Source of the DNA: a virus
Strand: one strand, 5' to 3'
IMG/VR virus record: IMGVR_UViG_3300034683_000229
Location: 1-34,065 of that record
DNA: 34,065 bases
Below the pieces are notes generated by a model. That model made no database searches, had not been told where the DNA came from, and was given only the letters and a program-made list of their open reading frames with translations. Positions within the stretch are counted from its first letter, which is position 1. Each line of letters starts with the position of its first letter. Shown here piece by piece: positions 1,099 through 34,065 of this stretch. The translations under genes and the position numbers were made by a program.

Positions 1099-4000
1099 CT
1101 ATTGTTTGATGTAGTCCATAACATATTCATCGTAGCCGCCTATCTCAATCCATTTGCCATCCTCCCCTTTGATTACTCTTGGCTTACTGATTGTTTTAGC
1201 GATGTATAACACATCATATTGATTTATATCTTTAAATAAATTTTTGTATATTTTATACATTTTTTCTTCGCCCGTATTTAAAACTCGGACAGTAAGTTTT
1301 GGAGTGTATTTAGTGTCAATATTCAATACAACAACATAGTTAGGGTCAATCAACGGGTATGTCGCCTGTATATACCCCAAATACTCTTGTTCGTATGCTA
1401 TCTGTTCTCTAACCTTTAACCCTGTGTCAGGCAATGACAATTCGTACTCTTTAATTTCTGCTATCCGTTTTGCCTTAGTTGTTTGTATATACGTCTTTTT
1501 ATAACGCTCCGTAAATTTTTTATAAATTTCTAATAATTTGGCGTTTTTGCCAAATTCGCTGAAAAAATTAAGTGTAATTAATATTTGCACCTGTCTAGTG
1601 TCGCATGATGTTTTTTCGGCAATGTCCACGAGCAGGTCGGTAAAACTATCGTAACTATTATTTCTGAGTTCATACAATTCGCCCGCTATTTGAGCGTTAA
1701 GAAATTTAATAGAGGCCATCCCTTTATAAATTGTGTTGGTTGCCTTGTCATATGAATACCCTGCTTGTGAATGGCGAAATTGTACCGGATTTATCGTTAT
1801 GTTATGCTTATTAGCATATTTAATAATTTCTGCCGTTTTATCTTGATTACCCGTATTTATATTAAGCATCGTTGTTAAAAATTCCAAGGGGTAATAATAC
1901 CGTAAATAACCGCACATGTAACCTATGAAGCTGTATGGCAAACTGTGGTTATAAGAAAACAGATAGTCGGCAGAATCTAATACAACTTGTAAAAAAGACT
2001 CTATGAGTTTTCCCGACTGTTCGGGCTGCACGTTATATTGTTCTTGCATAGTTTTTATAAAGCCATCTTTAATTTGCGGTATAAATTCTTCGGTGCCAAT
2101 CTTTTTCAACGTGTTACCCTATAGGCTTTTTATCCTATAGTTCTGGGAGTTTCCTCGCATTATGGGATGTCTGTTCATCCCCAGTTCGGCATATATTTTC
2201 ACCCACGTCTTTACGTTTGGGTGGGGGACACTCGTGGAGGTATTATTGCTTCCAATAACGCTCAACCTCTATGCTCTACGGTATTATATGGTGGTATAAT
2301 TACCTCGGTATTAGCGGGTAGTAGTTTTATTATATATTTCTTTCGATTCTATATTGTAAATATTTATTATATTTGTACTGCAAACATATCGTACATTCAG
2401 AGTAAATATATTCACAAAACTTTAAAACATCTTCTTGCCTATGGTATCTTAAATTAAATACATTTGTATTGTATTTATTCATATCTATTAATTTTTGATT
2501 ATTCGTACCAACATTATCAGCTAAAAATTGATTTAAACTTTGTAAAAACTTTTGAGTGCCACATATAGAAAGTTTTAATCTTCTTAAATTTTGGTCTTTG
2601 GGTTTGTATAACATGATACAACCATTACCATCAAAATATCCTCGTATAAAATGCTTCATTAAATTAATGGGAATATCAGGTAATTTGTTAATCAAAAATG
2701 TTTTATTTGGTACAATATCATATTTTTGTAAATCTTGTGCCCATTGTTTAGAATAAATATTAATAACTGCACAATGTTTTTTACCATATTGATATTCCCC
2801 AATATTGACTTCAGCATTTATATCATTTTTGAAATATTCTAATATATATTTGTCGTCATGTCGTAATTGTAAACTTATTACACAGCTATTAGATGATTTA
2901 TATCGTACATTACCATCTGCGGTCAAAAAACCCAACCAATATGCCTTATGCTCATCATCAATAGTAGTAAAATAATTATGATTCACAGCAACGGGTTTTA
3001 TATATTTTCCTTTTGACAAATTATTTCGCCGTATAACGCGCTCTATCATCGCGCTACTATTATATTTGTCTGTAAAATAATGTTGCCAAATTTCAGTACA
3101 TGTTTTCCCTTCTAGATATAGCTGAATAATAAGTTGTCGATCCTCATCGGTTAAGCGAGAACCGTAATTTATTTTATATCCATTTTTCTTTAAATATCTT
3201 TCTATGGTACTCTGGCTTCTATTCAATAATTGTGCAATCTGATTAGTATTTAAATTATCATTATATAATTTAATTATTTGCGTTTTTTCGTCATCCGACA
3301 AATACCGTTGTTTCATGTGTTCTACCTCGCTAAAACTACTACTAACGCTTTTACCGATTTTGCCCCCTGATAATATTAAGCATTTCTGCTTAATACGCCA
3401 AAAATTTAGCCAAGCCTCTTCTAACCATGTCTGCCTGCCCCATTGTAAAACCGCAGAATTTATGCAGAAAGGCCAGCAACTCCTCCTGATATATACAAAA
3501 CCCCATGGTATCACTAAAAAATTCGTTTAATATGGGATGGCCGTTGTCGTTAAACTCTCCATTAGCCAATTTGTCCCGATAACTTGCGCCACCAGGTCTT
3601 AATGCACCATTGGCCATAGCGAACAAATCTATATATCTCATATTGGGCGATTGTTGTTTAATTTTAGCTATAGTTTCCGGATTAAACAAACGCTTAATAT
3701 AATCGGCGGCAAAAGAAGATTCCATTTGGAATATTCCCAAATTGTTTTCTGCGATACTGTTCCATACGTCAATATCTTCCACGTCTATATTGTCGGGCGT
3801 CAGTCTGTTTATCCCAATCAGTTCGCATGTCTTGTTAATAATTTCTATATTATCTAATCCAAGCAGGTCTAGTTTAACAAAATTTAGTCCGTCAATTTCT
3901 TTCATGTCAATTTGAGATACAAAGTAATCATTGGCGGATGTGGTACACAACCCGATATTGTCATCCAGCGATACGGGCGACACTACTGAGCCGCACGGAT

Positions 4001-5447
4001 GTGAACCCACTGATACTATAACGCCCTGAAGCAAGTCAACGTAATGGAATAATTCTGGATATTTATTTCTGTAATAATCTTCTTTAGCCTCAACGTTATC
4101 GCATATAGCATTAACAGTGTTAAGCGGCATATTTAACGCTCTGCCTACATCTCTTATAGCGCCTTTGAGAGCAAGTGTATTGTGAGTAATAATATCACAG
4201 CAATATAATTCAGGCTTGTTAAAAATATATTGCTTGACCGCTTCTCTTTGAGACGGAGGGTAGTCAACGTCTATGTCTGCCAAGCTGACTCTTTCATTAT
4301 GCATAAAACGCTCAAAATTAAGATTCCATTTTATACTGTCCATTTCGGTAATGCCAAGCAAATAAGCTATTAAACTGCCCGATACCGATCCTCTGCTTGG
4401 CCCTGGGTATATATTATTTTTATGGCAAAAATCGATTATATCTTTTTGCAGCAACATGTAATCAACTGCACCATTGGTTTTATATACATCGTATTCATAC
4501 CGGACTCTATCAATATACTGTTGTCTTGTTTCGTCAGGCAACATAGTGCATCCACGATTGACAAAGCCTTTATTGATTTCATTCCTAAATACCTCATCAG
4601 AATTAGCGAACAATACGGGGTATTTGGGATTGGTATCAAGCTCAAACGGTTCTACTCTATCGGCTAAGGCATTGGTATTATTTAATGCTTCGATGACAAC
4701 ATTAATCGGCAAACTGTTTTGTATTTTATATGCTTCAATCAGCTCGTCATAAGTTTTAAACGTTAGGTCTAAGGTATCATCTAATTCTATGTGTTTTGAT
4801 AATTGTAATATATGCCGAGCTTCGTGCAATTCTTGATTCAACGAATGAGTATCGGTGCCAATAATTAAAGGAACATTAATATCCTTACTTAATTTGTAAA
4901 GATATTGATTGTAAATTATTTGTTCTTTAATATTATGATGTTGAATTTCTAAGAAACATCTGCCAGCATTAGCTTGCAAAAACTCTATAAAACGATTTTT
5001 AATATTATCGTTGCCCTTGTTTAATATACTGCCCAGACAAGCGGTAGCAACCATAATATTATCGCTGGTATTTATTAACTCGTCGATACTAATGCGCGGA
5101 ACATAGTAAAAGTGACCATCTTGGCGGTTAAAAGCAGCAGACGATAATTTATTTAATTCCTTAACGCCGTCCCAATTTTTAGCATATAAACAGCAGTGAT
5201 AGTTGTCTTTTATCTTCTCAGACAAGGTTTCAGTAACATAAAACTCTTCGCCGTGTATATATTTAATGCCCTGCTTATCGCAGTAATTCTTTTTATTGAC
5301 CCATGATAATACAGAACCGTGCTCGGTAAAGGCAATAGCTTTCATACCAATAGATGCGGCATAATCAATGTATTGTTTATATTTTGTTGTTGAATCAATA
5401 AAGATACCGTTGCCATAGTCTGAATGTAGGTGTGTTACTGTATACAT
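1099..5447 (-). CDS. dnaE: DNA polymerase III alpha subunit (DnaE type), interrupted by a group I intron
   Basis: Exon 1 is 5447-3408 (680 codons) and exon 2 is 2106-1099 (335 codons plus stop). Splicing out 2107-3407 restores one 1015-aa protein. Exon 1 carries the PHP domain (THLHS at residues 5-9, TEHGS 41-45, TDTHS 198-202), the GPSRGSVSGSL motif near 349-359 and the catalytic DIDVD at 391-395. Exon 2 carries the conserved C-terminal polymerase region (SLPYSFIGYMCGYLRYYYP). The exons join inside the conserved motif MGQADMVRRGLA/KKIG. The protein is close to the lower end of bacterial DnaE length, and the C-terminal tail is short. As a phage-encoded replicase it would make the phage less dependent on host PolC/DnaE. 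The start at 5447 has an AAAGG site. Confidence 0.93.
2107..3407 (-). other. group I intron in dnaE (1301 nt) with embedded homing endonuclease
   Basis: The boundaries are set by protein continuity and group I rules: the 5' exon ends in U (GGCU at 3411-3408), the intron starts AAAT and ends in G at 2107. Near the 3' end it shares blocks with the nrdJ intron: GTAGAGCATAG, CCACGAGTGTCC, AAAATATATGCCGA and a hairpin with loop ATAAAAAG before TAACA. A P7 helix can be read as GCATA/TATGC, and P3 as GGGGGC/GTCCCCC with a bulge. The endonuclease gene is inserted in the P5 arm, whose flanks GTAGTAGTTTTA and TAAAACTACTAC are perfectly complementary. Subgroup IA is likely because extra stems lie between P7 and P3. 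Confidence 0.87.
2330..3316 (-). CDS. LAGLIDADG homing endonuclease in the dnaE intron
   Basis: A 328-aa protein from the ATG at 3316. Residues 1-50 form a helix-turn-helix (NTNQIAQLLNRSQSTIERYL) resembling resolvase or transposase HTH domains, with a second HTH-like segment near 55-100. Two LAGLIDADG motifs follow, YWLGFLTADGN (126-136) and FIRGYFDGNGC (223-233), each ending in the metal-binding acidic residue, as in a single-chain two-motif enzyme. It should cut intronless dnaE alleles and drive intron homing. The open frame continues upstream for 66 codons into exon 1, but in a different frame from dnaE, so the internal ATG is preferred; its AGGT site is weak. Confidence 0.88.
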   Translation of the reverse strand: MKQRYLSDDEKTQIIKLYNDNLNTNQIAQLLNRSQSTIERYLKKNGYKINYGSRLTDEDRQLIIQLYLEGKTCTEIWQHYFTDKYNSSAMIERVIRRNNLSKGKYIKPVAVNHNYFTTIDDEHKAYWLGFLTADGNVRYKSSNSCVISLQLRHDDKYILEYFKNDINAEVNIGEYQYGKKHCAVINIYSKQWAQDLQKYDIVPNKTFLINKLPDIPINLMKHFIRGYFDGNGCIMLYKPKDQNLRRLKLSICGTQKFLQSLNQFLADNVGTNNQKLIDMNKYNTNVFNLRYHRQEDVLKFCEYIYSECTICLQYKYNKYLQYRIERNI

Positions 5448-5923: not shown

Positions 5924-7606
5924 ATGACACCCACAAAACGAGTTGCTTGTTTATATCGTGTGTCTACTAAAAAACAATTAGATGATGCACACATACAAGA
6001 CATCCCCATGCAACGTAAGGCTTGTATGGAATTTATAGATAAACATGACGGTTGGCAATTAGTTAAGGAATACACAGAGCCTGGAATATCAGGCTACAAA
6101 ACAAAAACCGATAATAGGGAACAGCTTATACAGGCTAAACATGATGCTGAAAATGGATTGTTTGATATATTGCTCGTGTATATGTTCGACCGTCTCGGAC
6201 GCAGGCAAGAAGAAACTCCGTTTGTATTAGAATATTTTGACAAGTTGGGTATAGAAGTGTGGTCTGCCGTAGAAGGGCAGCAAAAATTTGAGCAGCACGT
6301 AGACAGCTTGATTAATTTTATACGTTTTTGGCAGGCGGAAGGAGAGTCCAAAAAGACATCGGTACGTGTTGACACCAAACATAGGCAAATGGTGCAAGAG
6401 GGTCAATATAGAGGTGGCGTTGTACCCTTTGGATATAAAGCTGTGCCATCGGGCAAATATAATAAAGATGGCAAGGAATTGTTAGAATTGCAAATCAATG
6501 AAGAGGAAGCTGACACCATCAGGTTAATTTTTGACCTTATAGCCAATAAAGGATATGGAGCATTACGTATTGCCAATTATTTGAATCAACATGGTATGTT
6601 GCATAATGGTAATGTTTGGATAGCGTCTACGATAACCTATATAATACGCAATCCTATTTATAAAGGGCAAATGTCGTACAATAAGAGCACAAAAAAAGAC
6701 GGCAATCATCGTGTCAGTGATACTGAGTGGGTATTGGCTAATACGTATAATCCTCAACTGCAAATTGTAACACCGGAAATATTCGACAAAGCCCAATTGG
6801 TTAGACAATCACATAAACGAGATGCTGGTATCAACACCCCTACTAAAAGCCCACTATTACTAACCGGATTTATATATTGTGGATATTGTGGCAAACCGAT
6901 GACGGTAAAGTATAGATATCGCCAAAATAAGTCGGAAGTGCGCTATAAAACAGTATACGCATGTATGTCTAAAGCTACGCGCGGTGCTGACGCCTGCCCT
7001 GGGCAATACACTTATTCCAAAGAACGCATAGAGCGTCCTGTGTTAGAAGAAGTGTTTAATTATGTAAATAAACTTAAAAACATTGAGAGCAAATCAGTAG
7101 ATAATCCTTTGCAACTTATGGTGCGTCAACAAGAAAAAGAGATAAACAAGCTGATTAAGCAAAATGAAGAAAATGAGGAAAATTTATCCGCTTTGCGCAA
7201 AGAAATAGGCAAGGCATTGTTAGGCAAAAGTAAATTCGATCCTGATACTCTATCTGTTGCTATTCAGGAACAAGAATCGGCCATAACAGACATTAATAAT
7301 CGCATTGCTGATTTACAGAGTCAATTAGAACAAAGCCGGAACAAATTAAATAATATGGACGAATTTGCAAATATAGTCACTGCATGGGAAGATAAGTTTA
7401 ATCGAGCAGATGTTGATACTCAAAAAGCTATGTTGGCATTTGTTGTTGATAAGATCGTTGTTTATAAGGATAATATAGATATTACTTTGAATATGGATAT
7501 AGAAAAATACATGGAAACTGTCGGAGTGCAAAACTATAGTAGTTGTCCTCCCATCTACCACACTTTCGCACCTACTTTAACCTATCAAACTGTTATACAG
7601 TTTTGA
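5924..7606 (+). CDS. large serine recombinase / phage integrase
   Basis: A 560-aa protein. The N-terminal resolvase domain has the nucleophile in YRVSTKKQ (Ser14) and the DRLGRR motif (89-94). A recombinase domain follows (GGVVPFGYKAV near 164-174, RNPIYKGQM near 242-250), then a zinc-ribbon with cysteines 319, 322, 347 and 358, then a long coiled coil (about 395-475) as in integrases that control direction. It should integrate and excise the phage by Ser-linked attP x attB recombination, usually with a separate directionality factor. It is one of only two plus-strand genes, has its own sigma-A promoter, and ends one base before the 3' end of tRNA-Ala on the other strand. The last 25 residues extend beyond the usual coiled coil and are not recognised. 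Confidence 0.96.
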   Translation: MTPTKRVACLYRVSTKKQLDDAHIQDIPMQRKACMEFIDKHDGWQLVKEYTEPGISGYKTKTDNREQLIQAKHDAENGLFDILLVYMFDRLGRRQEETPFVLEYFDKLGIEVWSAVEGQQKFEQHVDSLINFIRFWQAEGESKKTSVRVDTKHRQMVQEGQYRGGVVPFGYKAVPSGKYNKDGKELLELQINEEEADTIRLIFDLIANKGYGALRIANYLNQHGMLHNGNVWIASTITYIIRNPIYKGQMSYNKSTKKDGNHRVSDTEWVLANTYNPQLQIVTPEIFDKAQLVRQSHKRDAGINTPTKSPLLLTGFIYCGYCGKPMTVKYRYRQNKSEVRYKTVYACMSKATRGADACPGQYTYSKERIERPVLEEVFNYVNKLKNIESKSVDNPLQLMVRQQEKEINKLIKQNEENEENLSALRKEIGKALLGKSKFDPDTLSVAIQEQESAITDINNRIADLQSQLEQSRNKLNNMDEFANIVTAWEDKFNRADVDTQKAMLAFVVDKIVVYKDNIDITLNMDIEKYMETVGVQNYSSCPPIYHTFAPTLTYQTVIQF

Positions 7607-7607
7607 T

Positions 7608-7682
7608 TGGTGGAGCAGAAGGGAATTGAACCCTTGGCCTCCTGCGTGCAAAGCAGGCGTTCTCCCGCTGAACTACTGCCCC
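7608..7682 (-). tRNA. tRNA-Ala (anticodon UGC), CCA encoded
   Basis: A complete cloverleaf can be drawn. The 7-bp acceptor stem GGGGCAG/CTGCTCC includes the G3:U70 wobble pair that AlaRS requires. The D stem is GTTC/GAAC, the anticodon stem CCTGC/GCAGG with loop TTTGCAC, there is a 5-nt variable loop, and the T arm is AAGGG-TTCAATT-CCCTT. A73 and CCA are encoded. It has its own sigma-A-type promoter at 7701-7729. The anticodon reads GCA and, by wobble, GCG, codons favoured in an A+T-rich phage. The recombinase stop codon lies just beyond its 3' end. Confidence 0.96.
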
Positions 7683-13267: not shown

Positions 13268-15749
13268 TTAATCGCATCGGCTCCATCCGCAATCGGGGCA
13301 TTGTACACATCCGGATTCATGTATAAGAGCCGCGCCGCATTCAGGGCATTTGCTACCGGCAGGTTTTAATGTATTACTTACCGTATTTTTCGATTGTTCC
13401 TTTTGTTGCGGCAAATTCTTGAGTACATTGGCAATGGCCGATGCACATGATTTTCCAGGACTTACGGGTTCCCCTTTGCCCTTGGCAAACTGATAAGCCG
13501 GACACACTCCTGCGGATACCAGTTGGTCTACAACTTTTTCAAGCGGTATACCGCCACGTAATACAAGCGATATAAGCCTGCTGGTTGCCTTGGTGAATAC
13601 CTGACAACCACCATTAGCCGATTCAATAAACGTTTCTGTTATATTACCGTCATCATCAAACGATACATTACAATATAAAGTGCCGCAGCCGGTAGTCAGT
13701 TTATATCTTATGCTTTTCGCAATATCAGCAGCGGGCTTGACATAGCCACGCTGTTCCTTCTCGTTTCCGTCTTTTTGCCCGATTTGTATCGTTTGATGCT
13801 GCCTTGAGTTATTCCTGTAATAAGTTAGCCCTTTGCATCCATTTCGCCATGCATAAATCAGCAAATCAGCCAATTCGTCTTTTGTAGCGTGCTCCGGTGC
13901 GTTTATCGTCTTGCTGATTGCGTTATGATAATATTTCTGCATTTCAGCCTGCACCTTTATATGCCATATAGGGTCAATATCATTGGCACATCTAAATAAA
14001 TTACGTAATACTTGTGGCACTTCTGGTATTTGCGTAGTGCCTGCTTTAAGGCAGCTCTCTATAATATCCTTTTCTTTTGCACTATCATTAACAATATCAT
14101 GCAGCATATCTGCAAATAACTGGTTAACCTCAATTATAGACCCTGTAACAATATTGCGTTGATAAGCCACCATAAATAATGGTTCAATGCCATAGGCGGT
14201 AGTTCCTAAGATTGTGGAAGTAGAGCCATTAGGTGGTTGTGTAGATATGGTAGCGCAACGCGCAGGCACATTCATGCTTGCGTATATGCTTTCGCCCCAT
14301 GCAGGGAAATTACCTTTTTCAAGTGCCAATTCTGCATTATACTCGTTTTCTGTTTGTCGTTTAAACCCAAACAATTTCTTAATAAAATCCAGACATTCGT
14401 CGCTGTCATAGCGTATACCCATTTTTATCAGAAGGTTGGCAAATCCTGTAACACCAAGTCCAATCTTTCGATGAGCCTTAGCCTTTTCCTCAAATTCCGG
14501 CAACGCGTAGTTGTTGATATCTATAATGTCATCCAAGAATCGTATAGACATCTGTATAACATATTTAAACATGTCCCAATCGACATCATTCGTTTCGGGA
14601 TTATATAAATTTTCAAGATTGATACTGGCTAATTGGCACAGTTCAAATTTCTCAAGAGGTTGCTCCACTTTGTTATCCCAAAGGCTTTTTATCCTTTGGT
14701 TCTTGCAGTTGCCTGCAAGGTCGGCATATATTTTTACCTTGCGGTATCGGACACTCGTGGGGATATTATATTCTCTTACGAGGTTCAATCCCTATGCTCT
14801 ACACTGCCTTGCTATATTATTAGCAAGGTTAGCACGGTATTACCCTGACGGGCTTTACCGTTAGCCCTACAGACCCCTTTCCAGGTTTGCCCGATTTTTA
14901 ACCTGAGGCAAGCTATTTACCACAGGGATTCGTCGTTGTAATATAATGCGGGTTAGACGAATCAAACTTACCATCTTGAAGATTAAAGGGATTTTCATGG
15001 TTTATCGTATCTATAAATATAAGTCCTGGCTCACCATTATTCCACATACCGTCAACAATTAAATCAAATATTTGTCGAGCGGGGACTGTATTATAAACCT
15101 TGCCATTCCATTCAAGGTCGACGTTTTCATTATTTATAACCTTTTGCATTTCATCATCAGTTATAACTACCGACAAATTCATATTAGATAACGAACCATC
15201 GTTTTGTTTGCACGTAATAAAATCAAATATGTCTGGATGATTAAATCTAAGACTGCACATATTAGCAGCGCGCCTTGCCGAATCGCCTTGTATAGTTGTT
15301 TCGGCCACCGTGTTGAACAGTTTAAGCCAATTGATAATGCCAGCAGATTTACCGCCCGATGTTTTTATTATTGCACCTTTTGGGCGTATATCTGAAAAAT
15401 CTTGCCCAACACCGCACCCGAACTTTGTTAACTTGGCATTATACCATGCATGTTGATATATACCTTCCAAACTATCGGGTATACGACCTATTACAGAACA
15501 AGCCGACAGGCATCTTGACGACCCTGCGCCCACTAAAGTGGGCGTGTTGGGCATCATTAGCTGGCGATTCATCAAATCATAAAATATTTCCGCATACTTG
15601 TCACGATCTTCAGGTTTTTCGGCCTGAACAACTGCCCGCGAAACACGGGCAAACATTTCTTCTGGCGAATGTTCTATCAATTCACCTGTGCGCGAATCTC
15701 GTTTATAATACCGTGATTGTAATAGTTTTAATGTTTCGTCTGTAAACAT
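13268..15749 (-). CDS. nrdJ: class II (B12-dependent) ribonucleotide reductase, interrupted by a group I intron
   Basis: Exon 1 is 15749-14919 (277 codons) and exon 2 is 14665-13268; removing 14666-14918 gives a 742-aa protein. It shows PNTPTLVGAG, the finger-loop radical site NPCG/EQPL (Cys276), PPNGSTSTILGTTAYGIEP, the class II C-terminal block (GCGTLYCNVSFDDDG and ESANGGCQ) and a terminal zinc ribbon (CPECG, CPDCGWSRC) with the redox cysteines. It reduces ribonucleotides to deoxyribonucleotides using adenosylcobalamin, so it depends on B12 from the host. The intron sits directly after the Cys-Gly codons of the active-site loop. GGAGG precedes the ATG. Confidence 0.95.
14666..14918 (-). other. 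group I intron in nrdJ (253 nt, no ORF)
   Basis: The 5' exon ends in U (TGTGGU) and the intron begins AAAT and ends in G, as in the dnaE intron. P1 can pair GGU with GCC across the splice site, with a U.G wobble. P3 reads AUCGGGCA/UGUCCGAU (8 bp) and P7 GCATA/TATGC; P6 CCTTGCTA/TAGCAAGG and a 3' hairpin CCAAAGG/CCTTTGG with loop ATAAAAAG are also visible. The extra stem GGGAT/ATCCC between P7 and P3 suggests subgroup IA. It shares several conserved blocks with the dnaE intron but lacks the endonuclease. Confidence 0.88.
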
Positions 15750-27171: not shown

Positions 27172-27444
27172 TTAATATTCTTCCGGAAACAAGATTGTAG
27201 TATATGACCTGTCCCATTCAGTTATAATCCATATTTTAACGCCGTTTATATTGTATGCGGACAATATGCGCTCACCGTCTTTAACAGCCTCATCATTTAT
27301 TTTTTTATCTTCCTCGCTTAAATCGCCCCAATCACAATTCGCGTGTCTTTTTACACAATTTATAATCGCATCTGCAAATTTCACATCTTCGGCCACCTTA
27401 TCTGCTACACCTCTTGTCATCATAATTTGTCCTAATTGTAACAT
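27172..27444 (-). CDS. 90-aa conserved mobile-element protein
   Basis: The sequence (LGQIMMTRGVADKVAE, WGDLSEEDKKINDEAV, ILSAYNINGVKIWIITEWDR, TTILFPEEY) matches a small protein common on plasmids and phages of many bacteria, sometimes mislabelled as a restriction subunit. I recall the WGDLxEEDxxxNExAL and KIWVITEADRxxTTxLxPEEY blocks. Its function is not known to me. AAGGAGG precedes the ATG and the gene overlaps radC by 13 bases; these two families are often neighbours on mobile elements. Confidence 0.75.
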   Translation of the reverse strand: MLQLGQIMMTRGVADKVAEDVKFADAIINCVKRHANCDWGDLSEEDKKINDEAVKDGERILSAYNINGVKIWIITEWDRSYTTILFPEEY

Positions 27445-27923
27445 TTTGTCACCTCCTTATTATTTTTAAATATTGAAGGGCAGATATACTTCAACGACGT
27501 ATAGCAATCATCCCCAATAATTATGTGATCTAAAACATTAATTCCCAATATATTACCTGCATCAACGCATCGCTTTGTTGTATTTATATCGACCGTTGAA
27601 GGCGTCGGGCTGCCGCTAGGATGGTTATGGAATAGTATTATTGACATTGCATTATATAACAATGCTGCCTTAAATATTTCTCGTGGGTGAACTATAGTAG
27701 CATCTACCGACCCTCTGCTAATCTCACATATAGAAAGAATGCTGTTTTTATTATTCAAACAAATTATACCAAATACTTCTTGCGCTTCTTGCTGTATGCC
27801 CGTTACTGTTTTGATTGCATTATAAGCATCTTCTTGATTGCCGATTGTTTTATTGATATCATACAACGCCCCCTTTTCTTTTACTAAAACAATTTTGCTT
27901 GTAACTAAATAAGCCTTGGACAT
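27432..27923 (-). CDS. radC: RadC-like JAB/MPN-domain protein
   Basis: A 163-aa protein consisting of the JAB domain only, without the N-terminal helix-hairpin-helix part of chromosomal RadC. The metal motif HNHPSG (99-104) with Asp112 (PTPSTVDINTTKR) is complete, and the Glu of FGIICLNNKN/EISRG lies upstream. Such proteins are common on phages and plasmids; the true activity (peptidase-like or otherwise) is unsettled. GGGAGGGG precedes the ATG, 24 bases after the 3' end of the tmRNA-like RNA. Confidence 0.9.
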   Translation of the reverse strand: MSKAYLVTSKIVLVKEKGALYDINKTIGNQEDAYNAIKTVTGIQQEAQEVFGIICLNNKNSILSICEISRGSVDATIVHPREIFKAALLYNAMSIILFHNHPSGSPTPSTVDINTTKRCVDAGNILGINVLDHIIIGDDCYTSLKYICPSIFKNNKEVTKCYN

Positions 27924-27947: not shown

Positions 27948-28026
27948 TGGTGGAGCTGGCGGGAATTGAACCCGCGTTTACCTATATAAGCCCGCCACTT
28001 ATATAAGCCGAATACCTTTCAGCCCC
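27948..28026 (-). ncRNA. tRNA-like RNA resembling the tRNA-like domain of tmRNA
   Basis: 79 nt ending in encoded CCA. The 7-bp acceptor stem GGGGCTG/CAGCTCC has G3:U70, the alanine identity pair. The T arm is GCGGG-TTCAATT-CCCGC. The 3' 30 nt closely match bacterial tmRNA as I recall it (ACGCGGGTTCAA...CCAGCTCCACCA), and the D region (AAAGGTATTCGG) resembles the tmRNA GGATTCGAC segment instead of a D stem. In place of an anticodon arm is a 10-bp helix CTTATATAAG/CTTATATAGG with loop TGGCGGG, lacking U33. There is no messenger domain, tag frame or pseudoknot. It could be charged with alanine and perhaps bind SmpB. No promoter was identified with confidence. Confidence 0.8.
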
Positions 28027-28081: not shown

Positions 28082-28408
28082 CTAAACCTTTGCTAATGCC
28101 CTACAACCCACAATTCTACCTTGTTCGTCTCTTACGCTGTCATCCGGTATAACCAAATCTTGCCGATTGCAAGCCTGGGCAACCAAGGCAGACACTATAT
28201 ATAACGTGTCAGGTGCAGGATTGGGCAAACCTTCAACTTGGCTATATGCTACTTGATTAATTGGTACTTTTATACCGTTTATGCTTATAATGTCTATAAC
28301 TTTTCTTGTAGTAGAGCATCTAGCCACTTGCCCAGATGCAGGTATAGTTATGACCCCTGTATCTGTTATAATGTTTACGTCATGCGGTGTTAAATTGATG
28401 ATATTCAT
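28082..28408 (-). CDS. unknown 108-aa phage protein (LTPHDVN-type)
   Basis: The start at 28408 is chosen for GAGGAGGG 6 bases upstream. The beginning (MNIINLTPHDVNIITDTG) and middle (TIPASGQVARCSTTRKVIDI) follow a pattern seen in small phage proteins, NLTPHxVxI...PxSGxxARv, whose function is unknown to me. Predicted mainly beta. It lies 55 bases upstream of the tmRNA-like RNA. Confidence 0.7.
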   Translation of the reverse strand: MNIINLTPHDVNIITDTGVITIPASGQVARCSTTRKVIDIISINGIKVPINQVAYSQVEGLPNPAPDTLYIVSALVAQACNRQDLVIPDDSVRDEQGRIVGCRALAKV

Positions 28409-28422
28409 ATAATCCCTCCTCA

Positions 28423-28755
28423 TTAAAACCATGCCCCAAATTCCGATACTTCTTTGCCTTGCAATGCCGCATCGACTTGTCTTTTAGCCTCTTTATACGA
28501 TGACATACTGCCTTTATGACCATGCCGATTTGCAATTGCGCGCTGTATAATATATTTGTTAATTTCTTTTATATCTTTTATTCCCCCTCTTTCTTGTATA
28601 TCAATATACCATTCGCACCAAAATTCCACATTTTCCTTATAGGCTTTGATAGCGCGCGCCGCCGCGCTAACACTGAAATAACCTAAACTTTCCGCTATAA
28701 GATGGGCGGTGAGGCGCGGATAACGCCTCACCGTTTCAAGCGCTTCTTTATTCAT
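28423..28755 (-). CDS. unknown 110-aa helical protein
   Basis: Begins ALETVRRYPRLTAHLIAESL, possibly an HTH, and continues helical and basic (INKYIIQRAIANRHGHKGSM). No family recognised. AAAGGAGG precedes the ATG. Two perfect hairpins lie within it: CGGTGAGGCG/CGCCTCACCG at 28707-28733 and TAGCGCG/CGCGCTA around 28653-28672. Confidence 0.6.
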   Translation of the reverse strand: MNKEALETVRRYPRLTAHLIAESLGYFSVSAAARAIKAYKENVEFWCEWYIDIQERGGIKDIKEINKYIIQRAIANRHGHKGSMSSYKEAKRQVDAALQGKEVSEFGAWF

Positions 28756-33783: not shown

Positions 33784-33855
33784 GATTGGTTACATAGTAA
33801 TAACGATGAGATGGGCAATTTTATTCACGGTTTTAAAAATTTTTTTTATTTTTTT

Positions 33856-34065
33856 GGATAGGCCATGGATAGGCCTTGTAGGCCATGGATAGGCCTTGTA
33901 GGCCATGGATAGGCCTTGTAGGCCATGGATAGGCCTTGTAGGCCATGGATAGGCCTTGTAGGCCATGGATAGGCCTTGTAGGCCATGGATAGGCCTTGTA
34001 GGCCATGGATAGGCCTTGTAGGCCATGGATAGGCCTTGTAGGCCATGGATAGGCCTTGTAGGCCA
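33856..34065. repeat. 20-bp tandem repeat array, at least ten copies, reaching the window end
   Basis: The unit GGCCATGGATAGGCCTTGTA repeats exactly from 33861 to 34060, followed by GGCCA; 33856-33860 is a partial unit. It contains two 6-bp palindromes (CCATGG, AGGCCT), and GGCC recurs every 11 and 9 bp, about once per helical turn. The array directly abuts a tract rich in T (33842-33855). The open frames through it are only translations of the repeat. Unit length and adjacency to an A+T-rich tract resemble replication-origin iterons. Confidence 0.95.

Follow-up and report, generated by a model that had tools for sequence, protein, structure and literature searches.

Bacteria rescue stuck ribosomes by means of an RNA called tmRNA, and this process, trans-translation, is both the main bacterial ribosome-rescue system and an antibiotic target. 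Phages can also encode full tmRNAs, with 402 reported carriers among 18,146 phage genomes (PMC9004378). Furthermore, a 'TLD only' tmRNA was described in mycobacteriophage DS6A by Mao et al. 2009; according to reviews (PMC4131195, PMC11915505), a DS6A-like molecule strongly inhibits E. coli tmRNA whether it is chargeable or not, perhaps via SmpB titration. DS6A is also named as the phage case in a 2025 tmRNA database survey (PMC11915505). Organelles harbor comparable genes: the Mallomonadaceae have CDS-less plastid tmRNA genes of about 65 bp, and some mitochondria retain, along with SmpB, tmRNAs devoid of a tag frame that are regarded as rescue aids (PMC11915505). We found no paper in the open-licence literature in which the mini form is described as a family widespread among phages. 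The kind of RNA considered here is already known from DS6A; its breadth, its conserved architecture and the selection for its alanylation appear to be unreported.

The window, i.e. the whole stretch of 34,065 bases that was analysed, is an IMG/VR virus record carrying phage genes. It encodes on the minus strand, at 28026..27948, a TLD-only (mini) tmRNA of 79 nt that fits the DS6A kind, being a phage-encoded tRNA-like domain without coding part. Both RNAs, as described, have little beyond this domain and no tag frame. However, DS6A is a single reported case whereas the family described here occurs in many phage groups and has a conserved capped arm. Like the mitochondrial tmRNAs of jakobids, oomycetes and others (RF02544), the phage RNA has no messenger domain or tag frame, but these organellar tmRNAs are usually permuted (two pieces) whereas it is made of one piece in standard order. 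The CDS-less gene of Mallomonadaceae is similar in size and likewise devoid of a coding part; it differs in being located in the plastid and derived from ochrophyte plastid tmRNA. The mini tmRNA shares with the standard tmRNA SsrA (RF00023) the tRNA-like domain, the alanine identity, the SmpB-contact nucleotides and the base of helix P2. Compared with SsrA, it is shorter (about 79 versus about 360 nt) and lacks the resume codon, the tag frame, the pseudoknots and P5. It also resembles tRNA-Ala (window 7608-7682) by its acceptor with G3:U70 and its T arm, but harbors A8 instead of U8 and has neither a D stem nor an anticodon arm.

The Rfam tmRNA model RF00023 matches 28026..27948 from end to end (model positions 1-374, 55.6 bits for a cut-off of 47 bits, E 2.1e-19), about 276 central positions of the model being absent from the RNA. 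Its identity as the tRNA-like domain of a tmRNA without the message half is strongly supported at the sequence level. An earlier sequence-only reading had placed at this very position an alanine-type tRNA-like domain with neither messenger domain nor anticodon, and had suggested a covariance model search as a check; the RF00023 match and the sequence itself bear this out. Our own family model R1 gives the window RNA 53.4 bits, this RNA being among the sequences used to build R1. ARAGORN did not call the mini tmRNA, its sole call in the window being a tRNA-Ala elsewhere. In the RF00023 alignment, the messenger domain, together with its resume codon and tag frame, is missing from the window RNA, and the region of pseudoknots PK1-PK4 is deleted, as expected from a length of 79 nt. 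No second tmRNA or messenger part was found elsewhere within the 34,065-base window. A messenger domain spliced elsewhere, which the sequence-only reading had named as the finding that would count against it, was detected neither in the window nor in the carriers searched.

The predicted fold (-33 kcal/mol, z -3.66, none of 200 shuffles being equally stable) consists of an acceptor stem, one central arm and a T arm, a single capped helix connecting the D region with the T arm. The RNA reads GGGGCUG AAAGGUAUUC GGCUUAUAUAAGUGGCGGGCUUAUAUAGGUAAAC GCGGGUUCAAUUCCCGC CAGCUCC A CCA, all its parts lying on the minus strand. G3:U70, A73 and the encoded CCA are all present in the sequence: the 5' acceptor strand GGGGCUG (28020..28026, with G3 at 28024) is fully paired with the 3' acceptor strand CAGCUCC (27952..27958, RF00023 and fold), in which U70 at 27954 faces G3, and the latter strand is followed by the discriminator A73 and CCA (27948..27951). 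The RF00023 alignment identifies a tmRNA-type D region, made of AAAGGUAUUC and the G at 28009 (28009..28019); this G is the counterpart of G19 of E. coli tmRNA, a SmpB contact (PMC8363625). The central arm (27980..28008), delineated by the fold and by covariation among relatives, stands in place of the absent anticodon arm and occupies the position where tmRNA helix P2 begins. Its two strands, 27997-28008 and 27980-27991, enclose a GGCGG loop (27992-27996). The 10-bp helix with one G.U and a GGCGG loop described previously from the letters is correct according to the predicted fold, in which this core is extended to 12 pairs by a basal G.U and by a U.G beneath the loop. A linker AAAC (27976..27979), whose A at 27977 corresponds to E. 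coli A334, leads to the T arm GCGGG-UUCAAUU-CCCGC (27959..27975, RF00023 and fold). The 5' and 3' parts are contiguous and in standard order; hence, this is not a permuted two-piece gene. A related contig (L022) harbors the same 79 bases without any change; the next upstream gene is 82% identical in the two contigs and the intervening spacer shows several changes and gaps.

The mini tmRNA sits between two same-strand genes. The downstream one is a RadC-like gene with a JAB domain (27432..27923, minus strand; Pfam PF04002, E 2e-41) and the upstream one encodes a phage protein of unknown function (28082..28432, minus strand; PHROG 30542, E 7e-30). The window also encodes a helicase, a helicase loader, a DNA polymerase, a ribonucleotide reductase, a recombinase and an amidoligase. 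The search for relatives of this phage via three of its proteins returned near-identical contigs only. The gene of a large serine recombinase, on the plus strand, ends 2 bases before an opposite-strand tRNA-Ala(TGC) gene (window 5924-7682), which may mark the integration site; this tRNA-Ala also has G3:U70. The large chain of the ribonucleotide reductase is encoded by two ORFs separated by a gap of about 125 bases (window 13268-15749); the gene could be split, interrupted at an intron site or frameshifted. Moreover, a DNA polymerase III alpha-like ORF is followed by an overlapping ORF with HTH and LAGLIDADG domains (window 2330-5447), which suggests a homing-endonuclease insertion. A tandem repeat array (about AGGCCATGGATAGGCCTTGT, window 33846-34065) reaches the contig end and is possibly the reason why the assembly ended at 34065.

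The sequence-only reading knew neither of the precedent of DS6A nor of the large phage family to which the window RNA belongs; this RNA is no decayed singleton. A first pattern, in which the tmRNA D region and the T arm were spaced by 22-52 bases and the 3:70 pair was left free, retrieved 36 stretches from viral contigs, nearly all with the same anatomy. A looser pattern gave 105 matches in viral contigs, about 95 of them apparently real. By contrast, only 5 matches were obtained with a gap of 53-83 bases, indicating that the mini tmRNA forms a size class. The relatives have a median length of 78, counted between the two ends of the acceptor. The 84,980 bacterial and archaeal genomes scanned contain only 4 matches. 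Once chance matches were removed, about 75 distinct relatives remained, and ACCA is encoded in 24 out of 75. The patterns imposed GGGG, A8, U15 U16 C17 and portions of the T arm, and most scans also imposed CUCC; conservation at these positions is therefore partly by construction. When the carrier loci are clustered with a threshold of two or three shared proteins, about 45-49 groups are obtained; this count is approximate because the loci are short, and most of them merge into one group at one shared protein. The G+C of these loci ranges from 0.29 to 0.69, which suggests many hosts.

Some sequences deserve a separate mention. Two contigs of Poribacteria MAGs (L039 7171-7254 and L040 7118-7201), which may be prophages or else phage contigs that were binned along with their host, bear an 84-base member. 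The 3' acceptor strand apparently has one bulged C in three otherwise different sequences (L060 6942-7019, L105 341-416 and L051 50-126). Several candidates were excluded from the family: L016, L087/L096 and L110 were dropped as chance pattern matches, as were the tRNA-Ser fragments found in L052/L061/L090/L098/L101. The full tmRNA called by ARAGORN in L097 joins the 3' end of a mini tmRNA to an unrelated upstream start, its tag not being identified. Among the BLAST matches, RpAliso, MT835676 and PA_L9 correspond to full tmRNAs and Bobbio, JSF12 and Ray17 to tRNAs.

Compensatory changes in relatives, the test that had been proposed for the central helix, were searched for by aligning 53 distinct sequences with MAFFT and scoring the seven pairs of this helix, and the result is clearly positive. 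The helix is paired in 92.5% of cases versus 48% in shuffles, with double-sided changes in 178 cells versus 58. Its covariation score reaches 1.13 versus 0.25 for shuffled alignments and at most 0.18 when the helix is slid. Double changes are seen at all seven pairs, and RNAalifold, unaided, predicts the same three helices. Covariation also affects the T stem and the free positions 5-7 of the acceptor. In the arm, pairing is kept while sequence and length vary freely. Most members harbor an asymmetric internal loop near mid-arm, whose first position is an A in 48 out of 53 sequences, and helix P2 of the Rfam tmRNA consensus has an internal loop of similar asymmetry. Because of this P2-like loop, the mini-RNA looks like a tRNA-like domain followed by the base of P2 and capped by a hairpin. 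The arm of the window RNA is a simpler and longer hairpin, and its linker is two bases longer.

Conservation also concerns the nucleotides that host partners would recognise. At positions left free in the patterns, A73 is kept in all 75 relatives and the counterparts of E. coli G19 and A334 (numbering mapped by hand) in 74 out of 75 each, the latter as A. In cryo-EM structures, A334 forms part of the SmpB Trp122 pocket and G19 stacks on SmpB; furthermore, the E. coli G19C mutation abolishes SmpB binding and trans-translation (PMC8363625). In the looser viral scan, the U70 pattern has 105 matches versus 1 for the C70 pattern, and this sole match reaches only 27 bits with R1. In the scan with a free 3:70 pair, the U70 form (CUCC) is present in 26 of the 28 distinct sequences, the other two being one C70 sequence (L015) and one chance match. 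The drop from 105 matches to 1 when G3:U70 is replaced by G3:C70 therefore indicates that alanine identity is selected. Judging from these patterns of conservation, the mini tmRNA is very probably kept as an AlaRS substrate and a SmpB ligand. Since G3:U70 is so strongly kept, the charged form probably matters too, beyond a simple soaking up of SmpB. However, the inhibition caused by a DS6A-like molecule, reportedly independent of charging, would not by itself require a conserved G3:U70.

Neither a SmpB gene nor a full-length tmRNA above the model cut-off was found in 50 carrier records, many of which are fragments, and no alpha-type permuted tmRNA was found above cut-off in a largely overlapping carrier set. 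For the window phage, the absence of a full tmRNA covers the 34-kb fragment only. As no SmpB or full tmRNA of the carriers was found, the mini tmRNA would have to rely on the AlaRS, SmpB and EF-Tu of its host. Three cultured phages have intact unannotated copies. That of Streptomyces phage Shaeky (MT701595, about 42931-43011) lies within a tRNA array and reaches 68.6 bits with R1, a score that is not independent since this copy is among the 53 sequences building R1. Those of Streptomyces phage LuckySocke (OR725497, L130 1992-2068), located among tRNAs, and Stenotrophomonas virus Jojan60 (ON045087), adjoining tRNA genes and a primase gene, are outside the R1 training sequences and score 65.9 and 65.5 bits, respectively. 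In the LuckySocke acceptor (GGGUCUG/CAGAUCC), pair 4:69 is changed from G-C to U-A and G3:U70 is retained. In Alone3, a relative of LuckySocke, the copy found at the same place (L129 1979-2054) is damaged, its T stem and UUC being broken. Arthrobacter phage Elezi carries a divergent mini-like stretch (L125 2952-3027) with G3:U70, a T arm and a long arm; it scores 37.5 bits with R1, has no RF00023 match and its D-region UUC is missing.

The most likely function, to which we assign a probability of about 60%, is that of an alanylated decoy, competing for SmpB and stalled ribosomes against the tmRNA of the host. The element is the gene of a tmRNA reduced to its tRNA-like domain: it lacks the messenger domain, the pseudoknots and most of P2, and a short hairpin closes what is left of the P2 base. 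The mini-RNA would be transcribed, its ends would be made by host RNase P (and the CCA-adding enzyme where needed), and it would be charged by host AlaRS and bind host SmpB and EF-Tu. The resulting Ala-mini-tmRNA-SmpB complex would then be a competitor of the tmRNA of the host. It might sequester SmpB, or act as a poison substrate that accepts the nascent peptide without providing a message. If a nascent peptide were accepted, there would be no resume codon, hence no tag, and normal release would fail to follow. The net effect would be that host trans-translation is dampened or blocked during infection. Among the functions suggested by the sequence-only reading, competition with tmRNA/SmpB appears the best supported, because the SmpB-contact and AlaRS identity elements are conserved and because a similar TLD-only molecule inhibits E. 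coli tmRNA. Tentatively, and with somewhat less than an even chance of being right, this can be extended to the whole family: its members would form a widespread class of counter-rescue RNAs, selectively maintained in dozens of unrelated phage groups, and would need both alanine and host SmpB to enter stalled ribosomes, where they would act as a poison substrate of trans-translation rather than as a passive sponge.

The main rival to inhibition is that the charged mini-tmRNA and SmpB help to clear stalled ribosomes without tagging, through peptidyl transfer to alanine followed by either drop-off or release through another factor, phage proteins being thereby spared proteolysis. The charging and SmpB elements would be equally conserved in this case, and the mitochondrial tmRNAs devoid of tag frame and kept with SmpB are thought to help rescue and not to block it (PMC11915505). 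We nevertheless consider such a rescue role unlikely, since there is no known step by which the ribosome would be freed in the absence of a resume codon and a stop codon and since a TLD-only RNA expressed in E. coli inhibits tmRNA (PMC4131195). The mini tmRNA could also be a resistant stand-in or decoy directed against a host defence nuclease or toxin attacking tmRNA, tRNA-Ala or SmpB complexes, the attacker being absorbed or evaded by an RNA without anticodon or messenger target. Phage tRNAs do counter anticodon nucleases, and many copies are located in or near tRNA genes (within 1 kb in about 29 of the 101 carrier loci, as well as in Shaeky). However, the parts cut by such nucleases are absent from the mini-RNA, and an arm whose sequence is free to vary is a poor fit for a specific bait, which makes this role improbable.

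Even less probable is a use as alanine donor outside the ribosome, for instance for cell-wall or peptide ligases: it would agree with the conserved alanine identity and with the amidoligase encoded in the window, but would leave the conservation of each SmpB contact (74 out of 75) unexplained. The idea that we find hardest to credit is that of a decayed tmRNA, an attachment-site remnant or one part of a two-piece tmRNA. Remnants do exist, as tmRNA 3' ends lie beside integrase genes in Mycobacterium phages Nibb and Marshawn, which were left out of the family for this reason. However, the mini tmRNA has both ends intact and a helix that covaries across many groups, which contradicts decay and upholds the earlier opinion that it is neither a decayed tmRNA nor an att remnant; besides, the serine recombinase of the window is 20 kb off, beside tRNA-Ala. 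As for a two-piece tmRNA, the arm ends in a loop of its own, which makes a second piece unnecessary, and no permuted tmRNA was found in the carriers searched.

A phage RNA known from one isolate turns out to be a common and structurally conserved gene, carried by phages of very different G+C. It is missed by ARAGORN and has remained unannotated even in cultured phages. The cultured Streptomyces phages that carry this gene allow direct testing of its role. These data point to a general strategy of phages, in which ribosome rescue is inhibited or redirected.
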